From Lacihabitans soyangensis (GTDB taxonomy: Bacteria; Bacteroidota; Bacteroidia; Cytophagales; Spirosomataceae), in contig NZ_RJUF01000175.1 in assembly GCF_024343775.1 (NCBI RefSeq), positions 1 to 64,000 on the forward strand: a stretch of 64,000 bases of DNA, given 5' to 3'. The notes under the pieces were generated by a model. The model ran no database searches and was not told the DNA's origin. It was given only the letters and a program-made list of their open reading frames with translations. Shown piece by piece: positions 1-30,333 of the stretch (position 1 is the stretch's first letter; each line of letters begins with the position of its first letter). Position numbers and translations under genes: made by a program.

Positions 1-930
<930 letters not shown>

Positions 931-20093: not shown

Positions 20094-21092
20094 TTACCTC
20101 ACCACCACCGAATCAATAATCTCCTTAGAAATATAATTCTGGAAATGTGTTCTATCTGGATAGTTGTAAAAGTCTCCGGTGTATTTGTTCTTTCCAGAAA
20201 AGTCATGCAAGTTATTTTTGAAATATTTTTTCAAGATGTCATAGTCCTTCTTGTCTAGCTTTTGCTGGTCATAAAGTGGCGTTAATACTACTGTATATTG
20301 CGTCTTATGTTTTTCTAAAATCACTGCGATTTCTTTTATCATAACCTCTTCTTCTTCCGATATTTGAGGGCTTCTATATTGTTGATTTTGTGGTCTTTCG
20401 TACATAAAACCAGCTTTTTTGAGGGAATCAAGTCGGTGCTTGTAATCGTAATTAGACTGTACGTAACTGTATTTTCTTATTTCCTCGGCTGAACATACAT
20501 GGTTGAAGTCGTTGGTTTTTACATCTAGTTTGCTGTTTACAAACGAACTGACTTTTTCACCTTCTCCCATCAATATCTTTAGTTTCTCAAGGCTAAAATT
20601 TGAAAAAAAACTTACGAGATGTTTATAATAGTAATAAAACTTGCTCTCCTTCAATATTAAGTAATGATCCATCGGGCTCGCTTTGGCTTCTCCGTCAAAA
20701 GTATAGTCTGTGTCTAGGTAAATGACTACGTTTTTTAGGTCATATTTTTCTGCTTCGAGGTATTTGAGCTTGGCAAGAATTCCACCAATGGGTTCGTTCC
20801 AGTTGGCATAATGGAAAAACCTCGACCCAGGTAATTTACTCTCCAAGTAGCAGCCATAAATACTGCAGCTGCGACTACTCCCAAAAATAAAAGAGTTGTA
20901 GTTTTTGTCTGTGGCCAAGAGTTTTTTGGTAGATATATCGCTGAGCTGTTGAAAGTTATATTTCCATGCAAAATTATTTTTATGCTCAAAGTCTGAGTAA
21001 ACATCTCTTTTGATATAGAAAAACAAAGCCAAAGCAGCCAAAACAGCAATCGGCGAAATGAAAAGAGCGAACTTTTTTATAAAGTTTTTCAT
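20094..21092 (-). CDS. SGNH-like membrane-anchored protein paired with an MBOAT acyltransferase
   Basis: The 332-residue protein has an N-terminal signal anchor (FALFISPIAVLAALALFFYI). A nucleophile-like motif FIFGSSRSCSIYG has Ser72/Ser73, and a C-terminal YPDRTHFQN has Asp313 and His316. The spacing GSS ... DxxH is the layout of SGNH/GDSL esterases and of the AlgJ/AlgX/DltD partners of MBOAT proteins. I infer that it completes O-acylation of an envelope or secreted glycan in the periplasm. It lies 3 bases after the MBOAT gene and is certainly co-transcribed. The acceptor is unknown; no polysaccharide synthase is close by. Confidence 0.7.
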   Translation of the reverse strand: MKNFIKKFALFISPIAVLAALALFFYIKRDVYSDFEHKNNFAWKYNFQQLSDISTKKLLATDKNYNSFIFGSSRSCSIYGCYLESKLPGSRFFHYANWNEPIGGILAKLKYLEAEKYDLKNVVIYLDTDYTFDGEAKASPMDHYLILKESKFYYYYKHLVSFFSNFSLEKLKILMGEGEKVSSFVNSKLDVKTNDFNHVCSAEEIRKYSYVQSNYDYKHRLDSLKKAGFMYERPQNQQYRSPQISEEEEVMIKEIAVILEKHKTQYTVVLTPLYDQQKLDKKDYDILKKYFKNNLHDFSGKNKYTGDFYNYPDRTHFQNYISKEIIDSVVVR

Positions 21093-21095
21093 CTG

Positions 21096-22544
21096 TCAGA
21101 ATTGGAAATAAATAAACTCCTGTTGTGAACCCGCAAATAAGAACATAATCACTATTAAAGCATAGTAAAATGCATAACGCAGTGCAGGCTTCCATTTGCT
21201 CCCAAACTTTTGGAGGGCGTATTGCTGCTCTCTGCCGAGCCATTCCACGACCATAAATCCGGCTACAAAAGCCAAAGTAATCATAGCTTTGTTGATTCCT
21301 TCAAATTTTGGAACGGTGAAAAAACTTGCCGAAAAGAGTTCAGAAATGTAACTAAAGGCGTGAGATACACTTTCGGCTCTGAAAAATATCCAAGCCAAGA
21401 GTGTAAAATGAAAAGTAACGAACATTTGCCCTAATTCCTTAAAATTCGGAAAGAGCCTACCTTGGGCCACAGTTTCGAGATTGTTTCTGTTATTTTGCAA
21501 TATCAAAAGCGGCAAAAATAGTAGAGCATTTATACCTCCCCAGATGATAAAAGTCCAGCTGGCTCCATGCCAAAATCCGCTCACAAGAAATATTATGAAC
21601 GTATTCCTGATTTTCTTGGCCAAGCTGCCCTTACTTCCGCCAAGTGGGATATAAAGGTAATCTCTGAACCAAGTGGAGAGCGAAATATGCCATCTACGCC
21701 AAAATTCTGCAATGTCTCTCGAAAAGTAAGGGAAGGCAAAGTTACGTAAAAGTTCCATGCCAAACAGACGAGCTGTGCCAAGTGCCACATCAGAATATCC
21801 AGAGAAATCGCAGTAAATTTGAAATGTAAAAAATAATGCTCCCAAATATAGAGAGCTGCCACCGTAGTCTTCAGAATTGTTAAAAAACATATTGGCGTAC
21901 TGGGCACAATTGTCGGCAATCACTATTTTTTTGAATAATCCCCATAGAATTTGTTTCAAGCCATCTACTGCCCTGGCATAGTCAAAAACTCGTTTCTTTT
22001 GAATCTGAGGTAATAAGTGAGTGGCTCTTTCTATTGGCCCGGCTACTAAAAGCGGGAAAAAACTCACAAAAACCGAGTATTCTACAAAATCCCGTTCGGG
22101 TTTGATTTTGTCTTTATAAATATCAATGACATAAGACAATCCGTGAAAAGTATAAAAAGAAATACCTATTGGCAAGATTACTTTAAGGGTATCAAAATGT
22201 GTATCAACTCCAGCCGCCGAGAGACCAACAGATAGAGAATCCATGAAAAAATTATAGTATTTAAAAATACCCAAAAAGCCCAAATTGATACCTATACTTA
22301 TCCAAAGCCACGCTTTTTTCCAATATTGTGTACTGGCCTCATATGTTTTTATGCCCGAATAGTAGTCTAGAAATGTGGAGAACATCAGCAAAAACAGAAA
22401 ACGGTAGTCCCAACAGCCGTAAAAAAAATAACTGGCCACCAGAAGTAGCAAGTTTTGATGATTTAATTTTTTATTGAAAACAAACCAATAAAGAAAGAAA
22501 ACTATCGGGAGAAAAATACCAAAACTTACTGAATTAAAAAGCAT
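21096..22544 (-). CDS. MBOAT family O-acyltransferase (AlgI/DltB-like)
   Basis: The 482-residue multi-pass inner-membrane enzyme moves acyl groups, usually acetyl, across the membrane to a sugar or other acceptor. Family hallmarks are FQIYCDFSGYSDVALGTARLFG near 237-258, FWRRWHISLSTWFRDYLYIPLGGSKG near 277-302, and SGFWHGASWTFIIWGG, where His326 is the expected catalytic residue. Length and topology fit AlgI. The SGNH-like partner follows within 3 bases. The region upstream (22545-22858) has no gene or clear signal, so the promoter is not defined. The acceptor is unknown. Confidence 0.9.
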   Translation of the reverse strand: MLFNSVSFGIFLPIVFFLYWFVFNKKLNHQNLLLLVASYFFYGCWDYRFLFLLMFSTFLDYYSGIKTYEASTQYWKKAWLWISIGINLGFLGIFKYYNFFMDSLSVGLSAAGVDTHFDTLKVILPIGISFYTFHGLSYVIDIYKDKIKPERDFVEYSVFVSFFPLLVAGPIERATHLLPQIQKKRVFDYARAVDGLKQILWGLFKKIVIADNCAQYANMFFNNSEDYGGSSLYLGALFFTFQIYCDFSGYSDVALGTARLFGMELLRNFAFPYFSRDIAEFWRRWHISLSTWFRDYLYIPLGGSKGSLAKKIRNTFIIFLVSGFWHGASWTFIIWGGINALLFLPLLILQNNRNNLETVAQGRLFPNFKELGQMFVTFHFTLLAWIFFRAESVSHAFSYISELFSASFFTVPKFEGINKAMITLAFVAGFMVVEWLGREQQYALQKFGSKWKPALRYAFYYALIVIMFLFAGSQQEFIYFQF

Positions 22545-22858: not shown

Positions 22859-24598
22859 ATGAATGATTTTCAGATAAAAGAACAGGCCAATGTTTACGAT
22901 GTCGTTATAGTTGGTTCAGGTGCTGGTGGTGGCATGGCGGCTTATCAATTGAGCAAGGCAGGGGCAAAAGTTTGTCTTCTTGAAGCCGGTGGTTATTTTG
23001 ACCCAGCTGATCCGAAGTATATCAACCAACTCAAAGGTCCTTGGGAATCGCCTCGTCGCGGTGCGAGTACACTTCGTCCTTTTGGAGACTTTGATGCTGC
23101 ATGGGGCGGTTGGGAGATTGAAGGCGAACCTTACACACGCAAGAAAGGTACAGAGTTTGACTGGTTCAGGTCGAGAATGTTGGGAGGTAGAACCAATCAC
23201 TGGGGCCGTATTTCACTGCGTTTCGGACCGAAAGATTTTAAAAGAAAAAGTATTGATGGCCTAGGCGACGACTGGCCAATTAGCTATGATGATTTAGCTC
23301 CATATTATGACGAGGTCGATAAACTGATTGGAGTTTTCGGTACAAAAGAGGGCCTATCAAATGACCCGGACAGTTTGTTTCTACCAGCTCCTAAGCCTCG
23401 TTTGCACGAATTAATGCTTATGGAAGCCAATAAAAAAACAGGCGTTTTGACCATTCCATCTCGTATGTCTATGCTTACCAAGCCTATCAATGGTCGTGGA
23501 GAATGTTTTTACTGTGGACAATGCAGCAGAGGATGTATGGCTTATGCAGACTTTTCGTCTTCATCGGTTTTGGTGATTCCTGCCATGAAAACTGGCAACT
23601 TGACATTGATAAATAACGCCATGGCTCGTGAGGTAATAACAGACGAAACCGGAAAGGCCACTGGAGTTTCATATGTCAATAAATACTCATTAGAAGAAAG
23701 TACTGTTAAGGGTAAAATAGTTATTTTGGCCGCAAGTGCTTGTGAGTCAGCTCGTTTGTTGTTGAATTCTAAATCAGGTAATCATCCTAATGGTTTGGCC
23801 AATGCTTCAGGAATAGTGGGTAAATACTTACACGACAGCACAGGAGCAAGCAGAAGTGCATTTATACCACACTTGACCAACCGAAAAAGATACAACGAAG
23901 ATGGCGTGGGTGGTATGCACGTATATTCTCCATGGTGGTTAGACAACGCCAAACTTGATTTTCCCCGTGGTTATCACATTGAGTATGGTGGAGGCCAGCG
24001 TATGCCGGGCTACGGTTTCGGTTTCGGTATGGAAAATGTCAACGGTAAATATCCTGACAGAAACGGTAAAATGAAGGAAGCAGGTGGCTACGGTGCCTCG
24101 CTGAAAGACGATTATAGATTTTTCTATGGTACTGACATCGGTATGGCCGGTAGGGGAGAGGCCATTGCCCGCGAAGACAACTATTGCGAAATAGACCCAA
24201 ATGTAGTGGATAAGTATGGAATCCCTGTATTACGATTCAACTATAAATGGAGCGAGCATGAGGTAAAGCAAGCCAAGCACATGCAGGATACTTTTGAGGA
24301 GATTATTCATGCCTTAGGTGGAATTCCAAATGGTACTAAACCTGGAGCAGATACCAATTATGGATTGGCTGCCCCAGGCCGAATTATTCACGAAGTAGGT
24401 ACGGTTAGAATGGGTACCGATCCTTCAAAGTCTGCATTGAATAGCCAATGCCAAGCCCACGATGTCAAAAACTTGTTTGTGGTTGATGGAGGTCCGTTTG
24501 TTTCTCAAGCTGACAAGAACCCTACTTGGACCATCTTGGCTTTGTCGCTTAGGGCTTCGGAGTACATCATGAAAGAAGTAAAAGCTAAGAATTTGTAA
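22859..24598 (+). CDS. GMC family FAD oxidoreductase with a four-cysteine cluster
   Basis: The 579-residue flavoprotein probably oxidises an alcohol or sugar. Features in order: FAD Rossmann motif VVIVGSGAGGGMAAYQLSKAG near 15-35; LGGRTNHWGRISLRFGP near 108-124; a cluster C216-x2-C219-x2-C222-x3-C226 (CFYCGQCSRGC); catalytic His511 in IIHEVGTVRMG; and Asn554 in KNPTWTILALSLRASEYI, taking the place of the second His/Asn of GMC enzymes. It has no signal peptide of its own. The next gene encodes a small subunit with a twin-arginine signal, so export as a folded complex is likely. No cytochrome c subunit is encoded here. The substrate is unknown. Confidence 0.88.
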   Translation: MNDFQIKEQANVYDVVIVGSGAGGGMAAYQLSKAGAKVCLLEAGGYFDPADPKYINQLKGPWESPRRGASTLRPFGDFDAAWGGWEIEGEPYTRKKGTEFDWFRSRMLGGRTNHWGRISLRFGPKDFKRKSIDGLGDDWPISYDDLAPYYDEVDKLIGVFGTKEGLSNDPDSLFLPAPKPRLHELMLMEANKKTGVLTIPSRMSMLTKPINGRGECFYCGQCSRGCMAYADFSSSSVLVIPAMKTGNLTLINNAMAREVITDETGKATGVSYVNKYSLEESTVKGKIVILAASACESARLLLNSKSGNHPNGLANASGIVGKYLHDSTGASRSAFIPHLTNRKRYNEDGVGGMHVYSPWWLDNAKLDFPRGYHIEYGGGQRMPGYGFGFGMENVNGKYPDRNGKMKEAGGYGASLKDDYRFFYGTDIGMAGRGEAIAREDNYCEIDPNVVDKYGIPVLRFNYKWSEHEVKQAKHMQDTFEEIIHALGGIPNGTKPGADTNYGLAAPGRIIHEVGTVRMGTDPSKSALNSQCQAHDVKNLFVVDGGPFVSQADKNPTWTILALSLRASEYIMKEVKAKNL

Positions 24599-24625
24599 TC
24601 GTTCTTGATTTTAAAAACTAAAAAA

Positions 24626-25273
24626 ATGAAAAGAAGAGATATTCTAAAAAATATAGGTTTAGGAACGGCCGGAGTGATGGTTTCAGGGGAAGCAATCAGT
24701 CAGGTAAAACCGAAAACTGCACCAGTCAAAGAAATACCAGAAGCCCAGAACGGCAAATTGCGTGATGAGATTATTCATGACAATAAACTCAAGGCAGCTA
24801 AGTTTTTCACTGCTGCAGAAATGGCCTCCATTACGGTATTGTCTGATATTATTATTCCGGCAGATGCCAAGTCGGGCAGTGCTAGTCAAGCGGGTGTACC
24901 GGCGTTTATTGAGTTCATTGTCAAAGACATGCCTCAGCACCAAACGCCTATGCGTGGTGGTTTGATGTGGCTCGATACGCAGTCTAAAAAGATGTTTTCG
25001 AAGAAATTTGTGGCTTTAACACCCGCAGATAGACTTAAAGTAGTGGATTTGATTGCCTACCCAAACAAGGCAAAAAAGGAGCACTCGCAAGGCGTTAGTT
25101 TTTTCAATTTAATGAGAAATCTTACTGCAACGGGCTTTTTTACAACCGAAATGGGCGTAAAAGACTTGGGCTATATGGGCAACACGCCTAATAAGTGGGA
25201 TGGTGTACCAGAAGAAGTTTTAAAACAATATAATCTTAGCTATTCAGAATGGGAAAAGCATGCAGCAAAATAA
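24626..25273 (+). CDS. Gluconate 2-dehydrogenase subunit 3-like protein with Tat signal
   Basis: The product of about 215 residues starts at the ATG at 24626 (MKRRDILKNIGLG); the frame opens earlier but only with a TTG. The N-terminus is a twin-arginine signal (KRRDILK, then GLGTAGVMVSGEAIS). The body matches the small-subunit family of membrane-bound sugar dehydrogenases: FFTAAEMASITVLSDIIIPADAKSGSASQAGVPAFIEFIV near 55-95, and FFNLMRNLTATGFFTTEMGVKDLGYMGN towards the end. Such subunits fold with the FAD subunit and carry it through the Tat pathway. It lies 28 bases after the GMC gene and overlaps the receptor gene by 25 bases. Confidence 0.83.
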   Translation: MKRRDILKNIGLGTAGVMVSGEAISQVKPKTAPVKEIPEAQNGKLRDEIIHDNKLKAAKFFTAAEMASITVLSDIIIPADAKSGSASQAGVPAFIEFIVKDMPQHQTPMRGGLMWLDTQSKKMFSKKFVALTPADRLKVVDLIAYPNKAKKEHSQGVSFFNLMRNLTATGFFTTEMGVKDLGYMGNTPNKWDGVPEEVLKQYNLSYSEWEKHAAK

Positions 25274-27312
25274 TAGGCTATGCTTTTTTATTTTTAAATT
25301 TTCAAATTGGTTTCGCTCAAGCAGATTCAACCATACTGCTGGGTGAAACCATTGTCAAAGGATTTGAAACCAATCAAAGTATACTAAAAACTGGAGCCTC
25401 AGTAAGCAAAATAGTTCAACGAGACATCGAACGTTTCGACAACACCACGCCACTGGAGGTGCTCAATACTCAAGCGGGCGTTAGACTAGAAGAGCGTTCA
25501 CCAGGTAGTTATCGTTTGGCTATACGTGGTAGTTCACTACGTTCGCCATTTGGAGTACGCAATGTCAAAGTTTACTGGAACAACATACCTATTACAGATG
25601 GGAATGGGCAGAGTTATTTCAATCAGTTGGACATTAATAGCATTGGCTCAATTGAAATCCTCAAAGGCCCATCGGGAAGTATTTATGGAGCAGGAATTGG
25701 CGGAGTGCTGAATCTCCAAACCAAGAATGCCGTGGCCGGAAATGCTGTAAGTACAGGTATGCATATAGGAAGTTTCAACACTTTAAATTCGTTTTTATCC
25801 TACCAACACGGAACGAGCAAGAACAATTTGTTTTTGAATTTTTCAACGAACAAAACCGACGGTTATAGAGAAAACTCCGCTATGAATCGCCAAACGCTGA
25901 ACTTGAGCAATACTTTTTTCTTGAAAAAACATAGTCTCAGTGTTTTTGGGTTACTTTCTGATCTTGATTATCTCACCCCGGGAGGGCTTACCTTGGCTCA
26001 AATGGAAGCCAATCCAAAATCGGCAAGACCCAAGACTGCGGCTACACCTGGAGCATTAGAACAAAAAGCGGGCATACATCAGAAAATTGCTGTCGTTGGA
26101 GCTTCTGATACTTGGAGTCTAGGTCAAAGTTTTGAACTCACTTCTTCGGTATTCTACACGGCCAACGCTTTGCAGAATCCGTTCATAACCAATTACGAGC
26201 AGCGAAATGAGCAAACGACGGGTTATAGATTTGTGCTCTCCAAAAGTATCGACAATCTCAAGTTTTGGGTAGGTTCTGAGGGGCTCAGGACTAATTCGAG
26301 TTTTGAGGTTTACGATAATAATTTCGGTCAAAAAAGTAAGCAGCGATACACAGATAAGATAAATTCAGGTCAAAATTCTGTCTTTTTTCAAGGACAATGG
26401 TCTCTTCCTTTTGAATTTGTACTAACCTCTGGTTTTAGTCTAAATTCCCAGAAATACAATTTTGAAAGAGTTCCTACACTACCTTCTGTCGCCAAAATTG
26501 ACATTTCAGACGAGCCAGTTGTTCCTTTTTCACCTAGAGTTTCGCTTCTCAAAGGTTTGGGTAAAAGTACCTCGGTTTTTGTTAATTTGAGTAGTGGTTT
26601 TTCTTCTCCAACGGCTCAAGAGTTAGTGGCTTCGGTACAAAACGCTCCAAATTTTGAGTTGTTAAAGGCAGAAAAGGGCTTCAACAAAGAAATAGGCTTG
26701 AGGCATAGAACAAATTCATTTTGGAATACTGAACTGGTCTTTTTTCAACAAAACATAAAAAATGGACTGGTGAGAAATCTGACTGCTACGGGCAATGAAT
26801 ACTTTCTGAACACCGGTGAGATTTTGCAAAATGGTATAGAATTTTCGAATACCATGGCCTTACAAAAAACAAATGACACTGAATTTATAAAGGAGGCTAA
26901 TGTTAGTTTAAATGTTATTTATAACGATTTTAGCTATCAAAAGTTCATCTCTGGTGCTAGTGATTTTGGTGGAAAGGAACTGCCTGGGGTATCAAAATAC
27001 AATGGTTTCCTGAAAATTGACGTAAAACAGCAAGAAGGATTTTTCTTAAACTTTGACTTGAACTATTTGTCTAAAATGCCTTTGAATGATCTCAATTCAG
27101 TTTATGCTGAGGAGGCTTTTCTCTCTCAACTAAGGCTAGGTTTTACGCGGTCAATTAGAAAAATAGATTTCAAAATTTATGCTGGAGTTGATAATTTACT
27201 CAACGAAAAATACTCCGCTGGTTTTGATTTTAATGCCTTCGGCAATAGATTTTATAATCCATCGCCACCTCGAAACTTTAACGGTGGCCTAAAACTTGAC
27301 TTTAAGTTTTGA
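25249..27312 (+). CDS. TonB-dependent outer-membrane receptor
   Basis: The 687-residue protein has a signal peptide (cleavage near GFAQA, residue 24) and a plug domain. ETIVKGFETNQS resembles a TonB-box region, LEVLNTQAGVRLEERSPGSYRLAIRGSSLR is the plug, and NSIGSIEILKGPSGSIYGAGIGGVLNLQTK is the classic end-of-plug motif. A beta-barrel follows, ending in NPSPPRNFNGGLKLDFKF with the terminal aromatic residue expected for BAM insertion. It lacks the carboxypeptidase-like N-domain of SusC proteins and has no SusD partner, so it looks more like a siderophore, cobalamin or small-molecule receptor. Its start lies inside the end of the preceding gene. The ligand is unknown. Confidence 0.9.
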   Translation: MGKACSKIIGYAFLFLNFQIGFAQADSTILLGETIVKGFETNQSILKTGASVSKIVQRDIERFDNTTPLEVLNTQAGVRLEERSPGSYRLAIRGSSLRSPFGVRNVKVYWNNIPITDGNGQSYFNQLDINSIGSIEILKGPSGSIYGAGIGGVLNLQTKNAVAGNAVSTGMHIGSFNTLNSFLSYQHGTSKNNLFLNFSTNKTDGYRENSAMNRQTLNLSNTFFLKKHSLSVFGLLSDLDYLTPGGLTLAQMEANPKSARPKTAATPGALEQKAGIHQKIAVVGASDTWSLGQSFELTSSVFYTANALQNPFITNYEQRNEQTTGYRFVLSKSIDNLKFWVGSEGLRTNSSFEVYDNNFGQKSKQRYTDKINSGQNSVFFQGQWSLPFEFVLTSGFSLNSQKYNFERVPTLPSVAKIDISDEPVVPFSPRVSLLKGLGKSTSVFVNLSSGFSSPTAQELVASVQNAPNFELLKAEKGFNKEIGLRHRTNSFWNTELVFFQQNIKNGLVRNLTATGNEYFLNTGEILQNGIEFSNTMALQKTNDTEFIKEANVSLNVIYNDFSYQKFISGASDFGGKELPGVSKYNGFLKIDVKQQEGFFLNFDLNYLSKMPLNDLNSVYAEEAFLSQLRLGFTRSIRKIDFKIYAGVDNLLNEKYSAGFDFNAFGNRFYNPSPPRNFNGGLKLDFKF

Positions 27313-27316
27313 TATA

Positions 27317-28165
27317 ATGGAGGCTCAATTTGAGAATTTCGAGATACATGGCCATAGAGGATGTCGGGGTTTAATGCCCGAAAACACTATTCCTGCCTTC
27401 AAAAAAGCTCTTGAGCTTCGTGTGGATTATCTTGAATTAGATGTCGTTATTTCGAAAGATAATAAAGTGGTTGTTTCTCATGAACCATTCTTTAATTCCA
27501 CTTTCTCAACTAAGCCCAATGGTGAGCCAATTGTTTCAGACAACGAGACCAACCTCTACGCGATGAATTATGGGGAAATTCGGTCATACGATGTGGGCTT
27601 GAGGGGCAATCCTAGTTTTCCTGAACAATTCAATGTGGCTGCTTATAAACCTTTACTTTCTGAGGTCATTGATTTAGTGTCGGATTTTCAAACCGCATTC
27701 TTTTCGAATTCGGTTGGTCTGAATATAGAGCTTAAGAGCCTTCCAGTCGAATATCACATTACGCAACCAGAGCCTTCTGAGTTTGTATTTTTGGTTTTAA
27801 ATGACCTTAACTTGGTTGATAGTCAAGTAAATATAGTTTTGCAAAGCTTTGATGTTACCGTTTTGCAAATTTTGAAGGCTCAACGTCAATCTTCTCGATA
27901 TTTTGAGATTTCTTTTCTAGTGGAGCCTGAAGACAACAACGAAATTGATTTCAATCTTGAAAAGCTCGGATTTAAACCCGATATTTGGAGTCCAAATTTT
28001 AGTGTTTTGTCAAAAACTAAGGTTGATTATCTGCACCAAAAAGGTATAAAAGTAATACCTTGGACGGTGAATGAAGTGGCCGACATGAACAAAATGCGTG
28101 ACTTGGGTTGTGATGGCCTCATAACGGATTACCCAAATAGAGCCATAGAATACATCAAAAAATAA
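27317..28165 (+). CDS. Glycerophosphodiester phosphodiesterase
   Basis: The 282-residue enzyme splits glycerophosphodiesters to glycerol-3-phosphate and an alcohol. Near the start, IHGHRGCRGLMPENTIPAF carries the catalytic His13-Arg14 and Glu22-Asn23 (numbered from the ATG at 27317). LELDVVISKDNKVVVSHEP follows with metal-binding acidic residues and the second catalytic His. The C-terminal VIPWTVNEVADMNKMRDLGCDGLITDYPNRA is the normal end of the TIM barrel. No signal peptide is seen, so it is probably cytoplasmic. The start ATG lies 4 bases after the receptor stop; the frame is also open from a TTG at 27296. It is part of the 22859-30333 run. Confidence 0.9.
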   Translation: MEAQFENFEIHGHRGCRGLMPENTIPAFKKALELRVDYLELDVVISKDNKVVVSHEPFFNSTFSTKPNGEPIVSDNETNLYAMNYGEIRSYDVGLRGNPSFPEQFNVAAYKPLLSEVIDLVSDFQTAFFSNSVGLNIELKSLPVEYHITQPEPSEFVFLVLNDLNLVDSQVNIVLQSFDVTVLQILKAQRQSSRYFEISFLVEPEDNNEIDFNLEKLGFKPDIWSPNFSVLSKTKVDYLHQKGIKVIPWTVNEVADMNKMRDLGCDGLITDYPNRAIEYIKK

Positions 28166-28173
28166 GTTTTATT

Positions 28174-29691
28174 TTGAGCTTAATTACAGAAGTAGTAGGA
28201 TTTTTTATCAAAAGACGAAGGTCTCGTATCGATCATTTCAAAATGTATCCGGTGGAGACCCAAAGCGAACAGTTTTTTAGTTTAATAGACCGAGCAAAGT
28301 TTACGGAGTTTGGTCTTAAATATAATTTTGCTAGCATCACCACAATCAAAGAATTCCAAGAAAGAGTACCCGTGGTGACTTACGAAGAGCATTATCCGTG
28401 GATAGAGCGAGTAATGCGTGGGGAAAAAAACATCCTATGGCCATCCGAAATAAACTGGTTCTCCAAATCATCTGGTACCACAAATTCAAGAAGTAAGTTT
28501 ATTCCTGTATCAGAAGAATCTCTCGAGGAGTGTAATTATCGTGGAGGCAAGGATATGCTGACTTTGTATTTTGATAATAAAATAGATTCTCAGCTTTTTG
28601 ACGGCAAAAGTATCTCTATTGGAGGTTCTTTGCATCCAAATCCGTTCAATACTCCTGCTATGACAGGAGATATTTCGGCCATCATTACCCGCAACATGCC
28701 CAAATGGGCCGAAATGTTCCGAATACCGCCACCCGAAATTGCCCTGTTGGAACGCTGGGAAGACAAAATGGAACGCATGATTGAGATCTGTTCTAAAGAA
28801 AACGTCACGGGCATTGCGGGAGTACCTACTTGGACAGTGGTGCTGATAGAAAGTATTGTTGAACGTATGGGAGCCAAAAATGCACTAGAAGTTTGGCCGA
28901 ATTTTGAGGTATTTTTTCACGGTGCTGTTTCATTTACGCCCTACAGAAGCCTTTTTAGAGATAGACTTTTTCCAAGCGACAAGGTCAATTATTTTGAGAC
29001 TTACAACGCCTCGGAAGGTTTTTTTGCCATTCAAGACGACTTCGCTTTGCAAGATCAAATGCTACTAATGCTTGACTACGGTGTTTTTTACGAATTTTTG
29101 CCTGTGGAAGAGTGGGAAAAGGAATTCCCCAAAGCACTGACTCTAGATGAGGTGGAGTTGGAGAAAAGTTACGCTATGGTTATTTCTACCAATGGTGGTT
29201 TATGGCGTTACAAAATCGGTGACACGGTAAAATTTACCTCGAAATATCCTTTTAGAATAAAAATTACAGGTCGTACCAAACATTTTATTAATGCTTTTGG
29301 GGAGGAATTGATGGTAGAAAACGCTGACCAAGCTCTTACTGTTGCGGCAGCTAATGCCAAGGTAGATTTGAAAGAATACACCGCTGGGCCAGTTTACATG
29401 GATTCTGACAGCAAAGGTGGGCATGAATGGATCATTGAGTGTTCACAATTGCCTGAAAATTGCGATCAATTTATAGAAATATTAGACAATAAATTGAGAG
29501 AAGTTAACTCCGATTACGATGCTAAGAGACAGAATGACATTGCCTTGGTTAAACCCAAGGTTCATTTTGTAGCCAGCGGCACTTTCTACACTTGGATGGA
29601 AAAACGTGGGAAACTCGGTGGACAACACAAAGTGCCAAGACTGAGCAATTCGAGAGAATATTTAGAGGAGATTTTGGAAATCATAAAATAA
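28174..29691 (+). CDS. GH3-family acyl-adenylating amidosynthetase-like protein
   Basis: The 505-residue protein belongs to the GH3 family, best known from plants where it joins amino acids to auxin or jasmonate through an acyl-adenylate. The bacterial members have no settled role. Visible features are INWFSKSSGTTNSRSKFIPVS near 108-128 (ATP-binding P-loop-like motif), YNASEGFFAIQDD near 273-285 (second ATP motif), and NGGLWRYKIGDTVKF near 340-354 (third motif). The start appears to be TTG at 28174, since MSLITEVVGFFIKRR matches the usual N-terminus and no ATG is near. It follows the phosphodiesterase by 8 bases. The substrate is unknown. Confidence 0.88.
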   Translation: MSLITEVVGFFIKRRRSRIDHFKMYPVETQSEQFFSLIDRAKFTEFGLKYNFASITTIKEFQERVPVVTYEEHYPWIERVMRGEKNILWPSEINWFSKSSGTTNSRSKFIPVSEESLEECNYRGGKDMLTLYFDNKIDSQLFDGKSISIGGSLHPNPFNTPAMTGDISAIITRNMPKWAEMFRIPPPEIALLERWEDKMERMIEICSKENVTGIAGVPTWTVVLIESIVERMGAKNALEVWPNFEVFFHGAVSFTPYRSLFRDRLFPSDKVNYFETYNASEGFFAIQDDFALQDQMLLMLDYGVFYEFLPVEEWEKEFPKALTLDEVELEKSYAMVISTNGGLWRYKIGDTVKFTSKYPFRIKITGRTKHFINAFGEELMVENADQALTVAAANAKVDLKEYTAGPVYMDSDSKGGHEWIIECSQLPENCDQFIEILDNKLREVNSDYDAKRQNDIALVKPKVHFVASGTFYTWMEKRGKLGGQHKVPRLSNSREYLEEILEIIK

Positions 29692-29700
29692 TTGGGTGAA

Positions 29701-30333
29701 ATGAAAGCAGTAATTGTTGGTTCTACCGGCTTGGTTGGAAGTTGTTTGCTTGAGCAATTAGACGAGGATAAAGCTTTTACTGAGATTCTTTCTTTGGTTA
29801 GAAAAAAGACGGGTAAGCCTTATAATAAAGTCAAAGAGGTCGAAGTAAATTTTGATAATTTGCCAGAGGAAGTCTTTGTGAATTCGCAGATAGTTTTTTG
29901 CTGTTTAGGTACTACTATCAAAAAAGCTGGGAGTCAGGATGCTTTCCGAAAAGTGGATTTTGAATATCCACTCGAAACCGCAAAAATGGCTATAGATAAA
30001 GGTGTAAACAGCTTTGCGATTGTAACAGCCATGGGTTCTGATGCTACTTCTTCTATTTTTTATAACAGAGTCAAAGGTGAAATAGAAAATGCATTGACGG
30101 ACTTGAAATTTGACCGATTGGGTATTTTTCGGCCTTCAATGTTGCTTGGTGAAAGAACCGAAACAAGAATAGGAGAGCGGATTGGCCAAATTGTAATGAA
30201 CTTTTTCGGTTTTTTAATCCCGAAAAACTACAAGGCTATACACGGTCATAAGGTAGCGACAGCTATGATTCAATTTGCCAAACAGACCAATTCTTCTGGT
30301 AAAAAAGTTATTTTATCTGGCGAAATGTATTAA
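29701..30333 (+). CDS. NAD(P)-binding Rossmann protein (HTATIP2/epimerase-like)
   Basis: The product of about 210 residues opens with the dinucleotide-binding motif VIVGSTGLVGSCLLEQL. CCLGTTIKKAGSQDAFRKVDFEY, AIVTAMGSDATSSIFYNRVKGEIE (with the short-chain dehydrogenase-like Tyr/Lys pair) and IFRPSMLLGERTETR follow. This is the atypical short-chain family near human HTATIP2/TIP30. The ATG at 29701 is preferred over an upstream TTG at 29692. It is the last gene of the six-gene run, and its stop overlaps the stop of the convergent DUF3276 gene by 4 bases. The substrate is unknown. Confidence 0.82.
   Translation: MKAVIVGSTGLVGSCLLEQLDEDKAFTEILSLVRKKTGKPYNKVKEVEVNFDNLPEEVFVNSQIVFCCLGTTIKKAGSQDAFRKVDFEYPLETAKMAIDKGVNSFAIVTAMGSDATSSIFYNRVKGEIENALTDLKFDRLGIFRPSMLLGERTETRIGERIGQIVMNFFGFLIPKNYKAIHGHKVATAMIQFAKQTNSSGKKVILSGEMY

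Follow-up and report, generated by a model that had tools for sequence, protein, structure and literature searches.

A probable genus-level composite operon carrying a core GH3-family N-acyl-amide synthetase

Six plus-strand genes lie tightly packed in the stretch of DNA analyzed here (the window, 64,000 nucleotides), which belongs to a 5.65 Mb draft genome, and they raise the question of whether their products, a GH3-family enzyme among them, serve one pathway. We consider it rather probable that these genes make up a composite operon at the level of the genus, one that carries a core N-acyl-amide synthetase, and that their products do not have to form a single pathway. Such an operon would combine four units that are kept apart in relatives: a GMC dehydrogenase with its small subunit, a TonB-dependent receptor, a glycerophosphodiester phosphodiesterase (GDPD) with GH3, and a Rossmann protein.

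Organization of the six-gene run

The proteins were assigned by Pfam and NCBIfam profile searches, with a PDB search covering GMC, receptor, GDPD and GH3, and start codons were picked from the sequence and from orthologues. The six genes are as follows.

22859..24598, + strand: GMC-type FAD dehydrogenase (Pfam GMC_oxred_C, 5.7e-21; PDB search, 6a2u/8grj, 1.6e-44)
24626..25273, + strand, ATG start: Gluconate_2-dh3 small subunit with the Tat-like signal MKRRDILK (PF13618, 5e-35; ORF from 24605)
25249..27312, + strand, ATG start: TonB-dependent receptor, PqqU/YncD-like (6v81, 2.4e-41; 9c4o, 3.1e-41)
27317..28165, + strand, ATG start: GDPD (PF03009, 5.2e-35, ORF from 27296; 3ch0, 3.1e-59)
28174..29691, + strand, TTG start: GH3-A, acyl-adenylating amide synthetase, OlsH-related (PF03321, PF23571, PF23572)
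29701..30333, + strand, ATG start: Rossmann NAD(P)-binding protein, Semialdhyde_dh/HIM1-like (PF01118, 1.8e-9; PF08732, 1.1e-7; ORF from 29692)

All six ORFs were confirmed on the plus strand in the order originally predicted, and the Pfam, NCBIfam and PDB names agree. Gaps of 27 bases (GMC/small subunit), 4 bases (receptor/GDPD), 8 bases (GDPD/GH3) and 9 bases (GH3/Rossmann) separate the genes, and the small subunit and receptor genes overlap by 25 bases, an overlap also present in locus L005. The run is presumably co-transcribed, judging from the sequence. On the plus strand between 22401 and 30900, the Bacteroidota-type promoter motif, which we take to be TTTG-17..21-TAnnTTTG, gave 0 matches, and a looser form gave 2, both intragenic, against 0.9 expected; the scan says little, because no promoter was found in front of GMC either. 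Upstream of the operon, an MBOAT O-acyltransferase gene and a neighbor with no NCBIfam match lie divergently at 20094-22544.

The GMC sequence shows a CxxCxxCxxxC stretch and a C-terminal H...NPT, and its gene adjoins a Tat small-subunit gene, the arrangement of a GMC/Gluconate_2-dh3 pair. Together with the Tat-exported small subunit, GMC would form a periplasmic FAD sugar/alcohol dehydrogenase. A twin arginine was present in 17/17 small subunits recovered (7/24 loci yielded no small subunit). Among open-licence PMC papers, none turned up on GMC together with a gluconate 2-dehydrogenase subunit 3. The receptor, with its hydrophobic, signal-like N-terminus, would be a PqqU-like outer-membrane unit taking up some ligand.

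The GDPD scored 122.2 bits on PF03009 against the required 23.6, and would cleave a glycerophosphodiester. Signal calls by a crude hydrophobicity rule on 28 GDPD proteins of family loci left three without a signal-like N-terminus: the window's, L023 (not adjoining GH3) and L030. Among the six genomes with the full run, an export signal was absent from GDPD in five (the window's own, G555, G556, G559 and G560), where the GHRG motif follows the likely ATG within a few residues and leaves no room for a signal, with the G555 start less sure since its frame remains open further upstream; the GDPD of the sixth, G207, has a short hydrophobic start scored as a signal by the rule. The GDPD of the genus member carrying GDPD-GH3 only (L122) retains a clear signal, so that, unexpectedly, loss of export goes with membership in the run. 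The GDPD of the run, apparently exported in most relatives, would be cytoplasmic here and may share a compartment with GH3.

Gene order in the genus and the wider family

We compared gene order in ten genus genomes, all of which carry GH3 (10/10). The full six-gene run was present in 6/10 (the window's own, G207, G555, G556, G559 and G560, counting G559 although its contig ends inside GMC), with 58-96% gene-by-gene identity to the window, and this repetition shows that the run is more than chance packing. The remaining genomes hold partial sets: GMC, small subunit, receptor, GH3 and Rossmann with GDPD absent (G254); receptor-GH3 followed by DUF3276, RlpA and DUF58, with GMC, GDPD and Rossmann missing (G558, G554); and GDPD-GH3 only (G557). 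The run was therefore built stepwise and partly dismantled within the genus. A Rossmann homologue lies downstream of GH3 in 7/10 genus genomes and after GH3 in 0/38 family loci outside the genus (L006-L043). GH3 proteins of 87-96% identity came from three Lacihabitans records and two MAGs, one carrying the label Leadbetterella and the other Spirosoma fluviale.

We then examined 41 genomes of the family, two of them from the genus and 39 outside it. GMC matches (E<=1e-120) occurred in 39/41, with 73-92% identity outside the window; receptor matches (E<=1e-50) in 31/41, the best per genome at 35-61% identity outside the window, where those at 35-45% may not all be orthologues; and GH3 matches (E<=1e-20) in 41/41, two to four per genome. 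Across other family genera GMC is the more conserved protein (73-82% identical, vs 54-68% for GH3). Excluding G314 (no window-type GH3) and G295 (no GMC and no receptor), 37 genomes outside the genus were informative, and in 37/37 the listed GMC and receptor matches were either on a different contig from GH3 or separated from it by about 140 kb or more, although many of these genomes are drafts whose contig ends could conceal a link. On a shared contig, the shortest distances to GH3 were about 143 kb for GMC (G301) and about 314 kb for the receptor (G309); where all three shared a contig (G305, G313, G114, G029, G233 and G292), neither lay within 0.8 Mb of GH3.

These results bear directly on the idea of one dedicated pathway, in which a ligand imported by the receptor would be oxidized by the periplasmic dehydrogenase, processed by GDPD and GH3 once in the cytoplasm, and reduced or oxidized by the Rossmann protein. 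The tight packing, the 25-base overlap and retention of the run in 6/10 genus genomes speak for such a pathway, as does a GDPD with no export signal in 5/6 runs, which would share GH3's compartment; against it, the genes are far apart in every informative family genome outside the genus, and within the genus pieces are absent while the rest is kept. We therefore regard a single pathway as unlikely. The original prediction, that the run could import and modify a small molecule, is not supported as one pathway; at the family level related genomes scatter the genes, the very observation it had named as speaking against itself.

Two pairs recur in the family. Outside the genus, the best 22 of 42 GMC matches in the family (L156-L177) have the small subunit beside or joined to GMC in 21/22 cases, the lone exception ending at a contig edge. 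Across 40 family loci, the window's among them, the position immediately upstream of GH3 was taken by GDPD in 26 and by some other same-strand ORF in 11; it was a divergent gene in 2 and a contig edge in 1. On this gene order, GDPD-GH3 and GMC-small subunit are the only units kept together in the wider family, and the operon of the genus (probably Lacihabitans) is, on the same comparison, real but young, its parts being apart in relatives. The composite reading draws on the full run in 6/10 genus genomes, the partial sets in others, the scatter across the family and the recurrence of these two pairs. It has to accommodate the 14/40 family loci in which GDPD is not GH3's direct upstream neighbor, and the fact that separate units have come together in a single operon, with two genes overlapping by 25 bases, could in its own right point to shared function. 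A six-gene arrangement this recent cannot be taken for the ancestral GH3 pathway, which removes a false lead.

The GH3 enzyme, its neighbors and membrane lipids

The GH3 protein scored 194.9, 75 and 101.4 bits on its N-terminal, middle and C-terminal domains, each over 23.6, and carries the motifs SSGTT..K, YNASE and GLWRY.IGD. In an alignment of 98 of 100 loci (L069 and L089 excluded), S99-S-G-T-T103, K108, A279-S-E-G282, R345-Y346 and G349-D350 were invariant (98/98), and Y277 (95/98), N278 (94/98) and W344 (97/98) nearly so. In the PDB search, the closest solved relatives were plant GH3 enzymes only.

The statement that bacterial GH3 lacks a settled role is outdated: a planctomycete GH3, OlsH, was reported in 2025 to make N-acyl-ornithine from ornithine and free fatty acids (excerpts of PMC12493201). 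According to the same excerpts, almost 90% of that paper's search matches fall in Bacteroidota, where its authors anticipate the use of other amino acids, consider N-acyl-ornithine synthesis unlikely and leave the question of the homologues open; the GH3 question is thus still live in Bacteroidota. Among open-licence PMC papers judged by title, PMC12493201 was the only relevant one on bacterial GH3 products; in the excerpts of PMC12927429, on a Bacteroidota strain, "GH3" stands solely in the reference list and ornithine lipids are assigned to OlsF.

The window's enzyme would use ATP to activate a carboxylic acid, a fatty acid being the likeliest, and would then join it to an amine, for which an amino acid is the likeliest; the product would be an N-acyl amino acid. 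Gene order, families, scatter and intact motifs were read directly from the genomes; that GH3 probably joins fatty acids to amino acids we infer from OlsH and plant GH3. Plant-hormone-type conjugation found no support in the gene context, although plant GH3s are the sole solved relatives.

We investigated the distribution of the enzyme. PF03321 was present in 278/291 order genomes, and the window GH3 itself matched 131/148 order genomes at E<=1e-130, one match each. At E<=1e-60 it matched 85/247 phylum-sample genomes, 61/85 of the same class; the 20 unmatched genomes listed were all outside the class, with a further 142 unmatched beyond those listed. The window's own genome (G000) holds a second GH3 copy on contig C8 (L003, 7773-9338), divergent from what we take, by reading the sequence, to be metallophosphoesterase-like and glycosyltransferase-like genes.

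Comparing gene order around GH3 in Cytophagales, as originally suggested, showed that GDPD recurs inside the family and lptB, partly with recJ, outside it. With ORFs called by a simple length rule throughout, we found directly upstream of GH3 in 40 order loci of other families lptB in 23, a divergent gene in 9, another ORF in 6 and a contig edge in 1 (L069 having no intact GH3 ORF), and in 20 class loci lptB in 6, a divergent gene in 7 and another ORF in 6 (L089 left unassessed). In the GH3-A tree (98 proteins; a quick tree with midpoint root), the family formed one group of 40 (SH-aLRT 99), and labels permitting one small intervening ORF (GDPD 27, lptB 30) required 5 changes for GDPD against 23.6 for shuffled labels, and 15 for lptB against 25.8. 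From the neighbor counts and the tree, therefore, the GDPD link belongs to the family and the lptB link to other lineages.

This neighborhood raises the possibility that GH3-A acts in outer-membrane lipid biogenesis coupled to LptB. In its favor, lptB is the commonest upstream neighbor outside the family, in order and class loci, and one representative scored 380.5 bits over 240 on TIGR04406. On the other side, recJ, a DNA-repair exonuclease gene (one representative, TIGR00644, 543.7 bits over 396.9), precedes lptB in 15/29 loci, so that the lptB-GH3 setting may be a housekeeping cluster, and the window's genome carries lptB on another contig (C195). Direct recJ-lptB-GH3 succession occurred in 11/40 order and 4/20 class loci (L051, L055, L063, L064, L070-L073, L077-L079 and L084-L087), spanning several of the order's families plus a single family of the class. 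We further searched 30 chosen genomes, comprising all 13 without GH3 and 17 with it, mostly from two small-genome families and some of them incomplete. LpxC was found in 11/17 GH3-positive and 7/13 GH3-negative genomes, LptB in 13/17 and 10/13, and GlsB above its cut-off in 1/30, the window's (GH3-negative G033 gave a weak match under the cut-off); within this set, GH3 co-varied with none of LpxC, LptB and GlsB. Coupling to LptB is thus quite unlikely, and we rejected a link to LPS via lptB on the lack of co-variation with LpxC or LptB. Three genomes of 0.9-1.1 Mb (G053, G108 and G194) have GH3 and no LpxC or GlsB match, G053 having no LptB match either.

A further alternative is that the product of GH3 is an ornithine lipid, as with OlsH, or a glycine lipid. 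OlsH is the sole NCBIfam match of GH3 and covers nearly the whole protein; however, GH3 reached 394.9 bits against an equivalog cut-off of 620 (the second GH3, 331.6 bits). On C173 the genome also carries adjacent GlsB and GlsA genes, which scored 484.2 bits over a cut-off of 300 and 400.6 bits over 260, and therefore a separate glycine-lipid route. The lack of a GlsB match in 16/17 GH3-positive chosen genomes argues against a glycine-lipid pathway that both share, though not against a replacement of that pathway by GH3. We consider this alternative very unlikely, and set aside glycine and ornithine lipids as the product on the failed OlsH cut-off and the separate GlsB-GlsA pair.

Beyond the composite operon, we tentatively propose, as a possibility short of probable, that GH3-A is a core Bacteroidia acyl-amide synthetase, one copy per genome, making an uncharacterised lipid (an N-acyl amino acid or some other amide) with no dependence on lipid A or glycine lipids, and retained in some genomes of ~1 Mb, which in Lacihabitans would have been wired to a receptor ligand and a relocated cytoplasmic phosphodiesterase. 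The lasting interest lies in the GH3 clade itself rather than in the six-gene run. Nearly universal in the order sample, often adjoining lptB and present in some genomes that lack LpxC or GlsB, the clade offers a clean target within a family that is very common in Bacteroidota and whose substrates there are left open in the excerpts of PMC12493201.

Comparison with known systems

The GDPD matches the glycerophosphodiester phosphodiesterase 3ch0 over residues 7-275 of 282; 25/28 family-locus GDPDs have a signal-like N-terminus, whereas the window's has none. The receptor's best solved relative is the PQQ TonB-dependent transporter PqqU/YncD, to which it aligns from residue 70 to its end (70-687). 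The PqqU signature is an aromatic residue at 99, R304 and R365 (excerpts of PMC12124388). Phenylalanine occupies position 99 in 27/27 aligned sequences (family and genus), whereas Arg is absent from the R304 and R365 columns in 27/27; an Arg stands within four columns of R304 in 7/27 and of R365 in 13/27, and the gappy alignment there leaves some doubt. On the NCBIfam PqqU model the receptor scored 189.7, far below the cut-off of 1200. With two of three signature residues missing, PQQ import is unsupported.

FAD glucose dehydrogenase and the fructose dehydrogenase large subunit are the closest solved relatives of the GMC catalytic subunit. As in those enzymes, a Tat small subunit adjoins GMC and would export it as its partner; in contrast, a cytochrome gene is absent among the six genes.

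The GH3 enzyme is, by its profile matches, related to OlsH, the lyso-ornithine lipid synthetase of Singulisphaera acidiphila, yet no OlsH by the equivalog rule. In planctomycetes OlsH has OlsI in the same operon. By domain family, ten window proteins scanned gave no alpha/beta-hydrolase match. The two enzymes share three nucleotide motifs and are similar in length (505 aa for GH3, 526 aa for OlsH in the excerpts of PMC12493201), with the HMM match spanning residues 13-504. Aligned by motif, the motif I serine of GH3 corresponds to OlsH S115, a residue that those excerpts describe as required.
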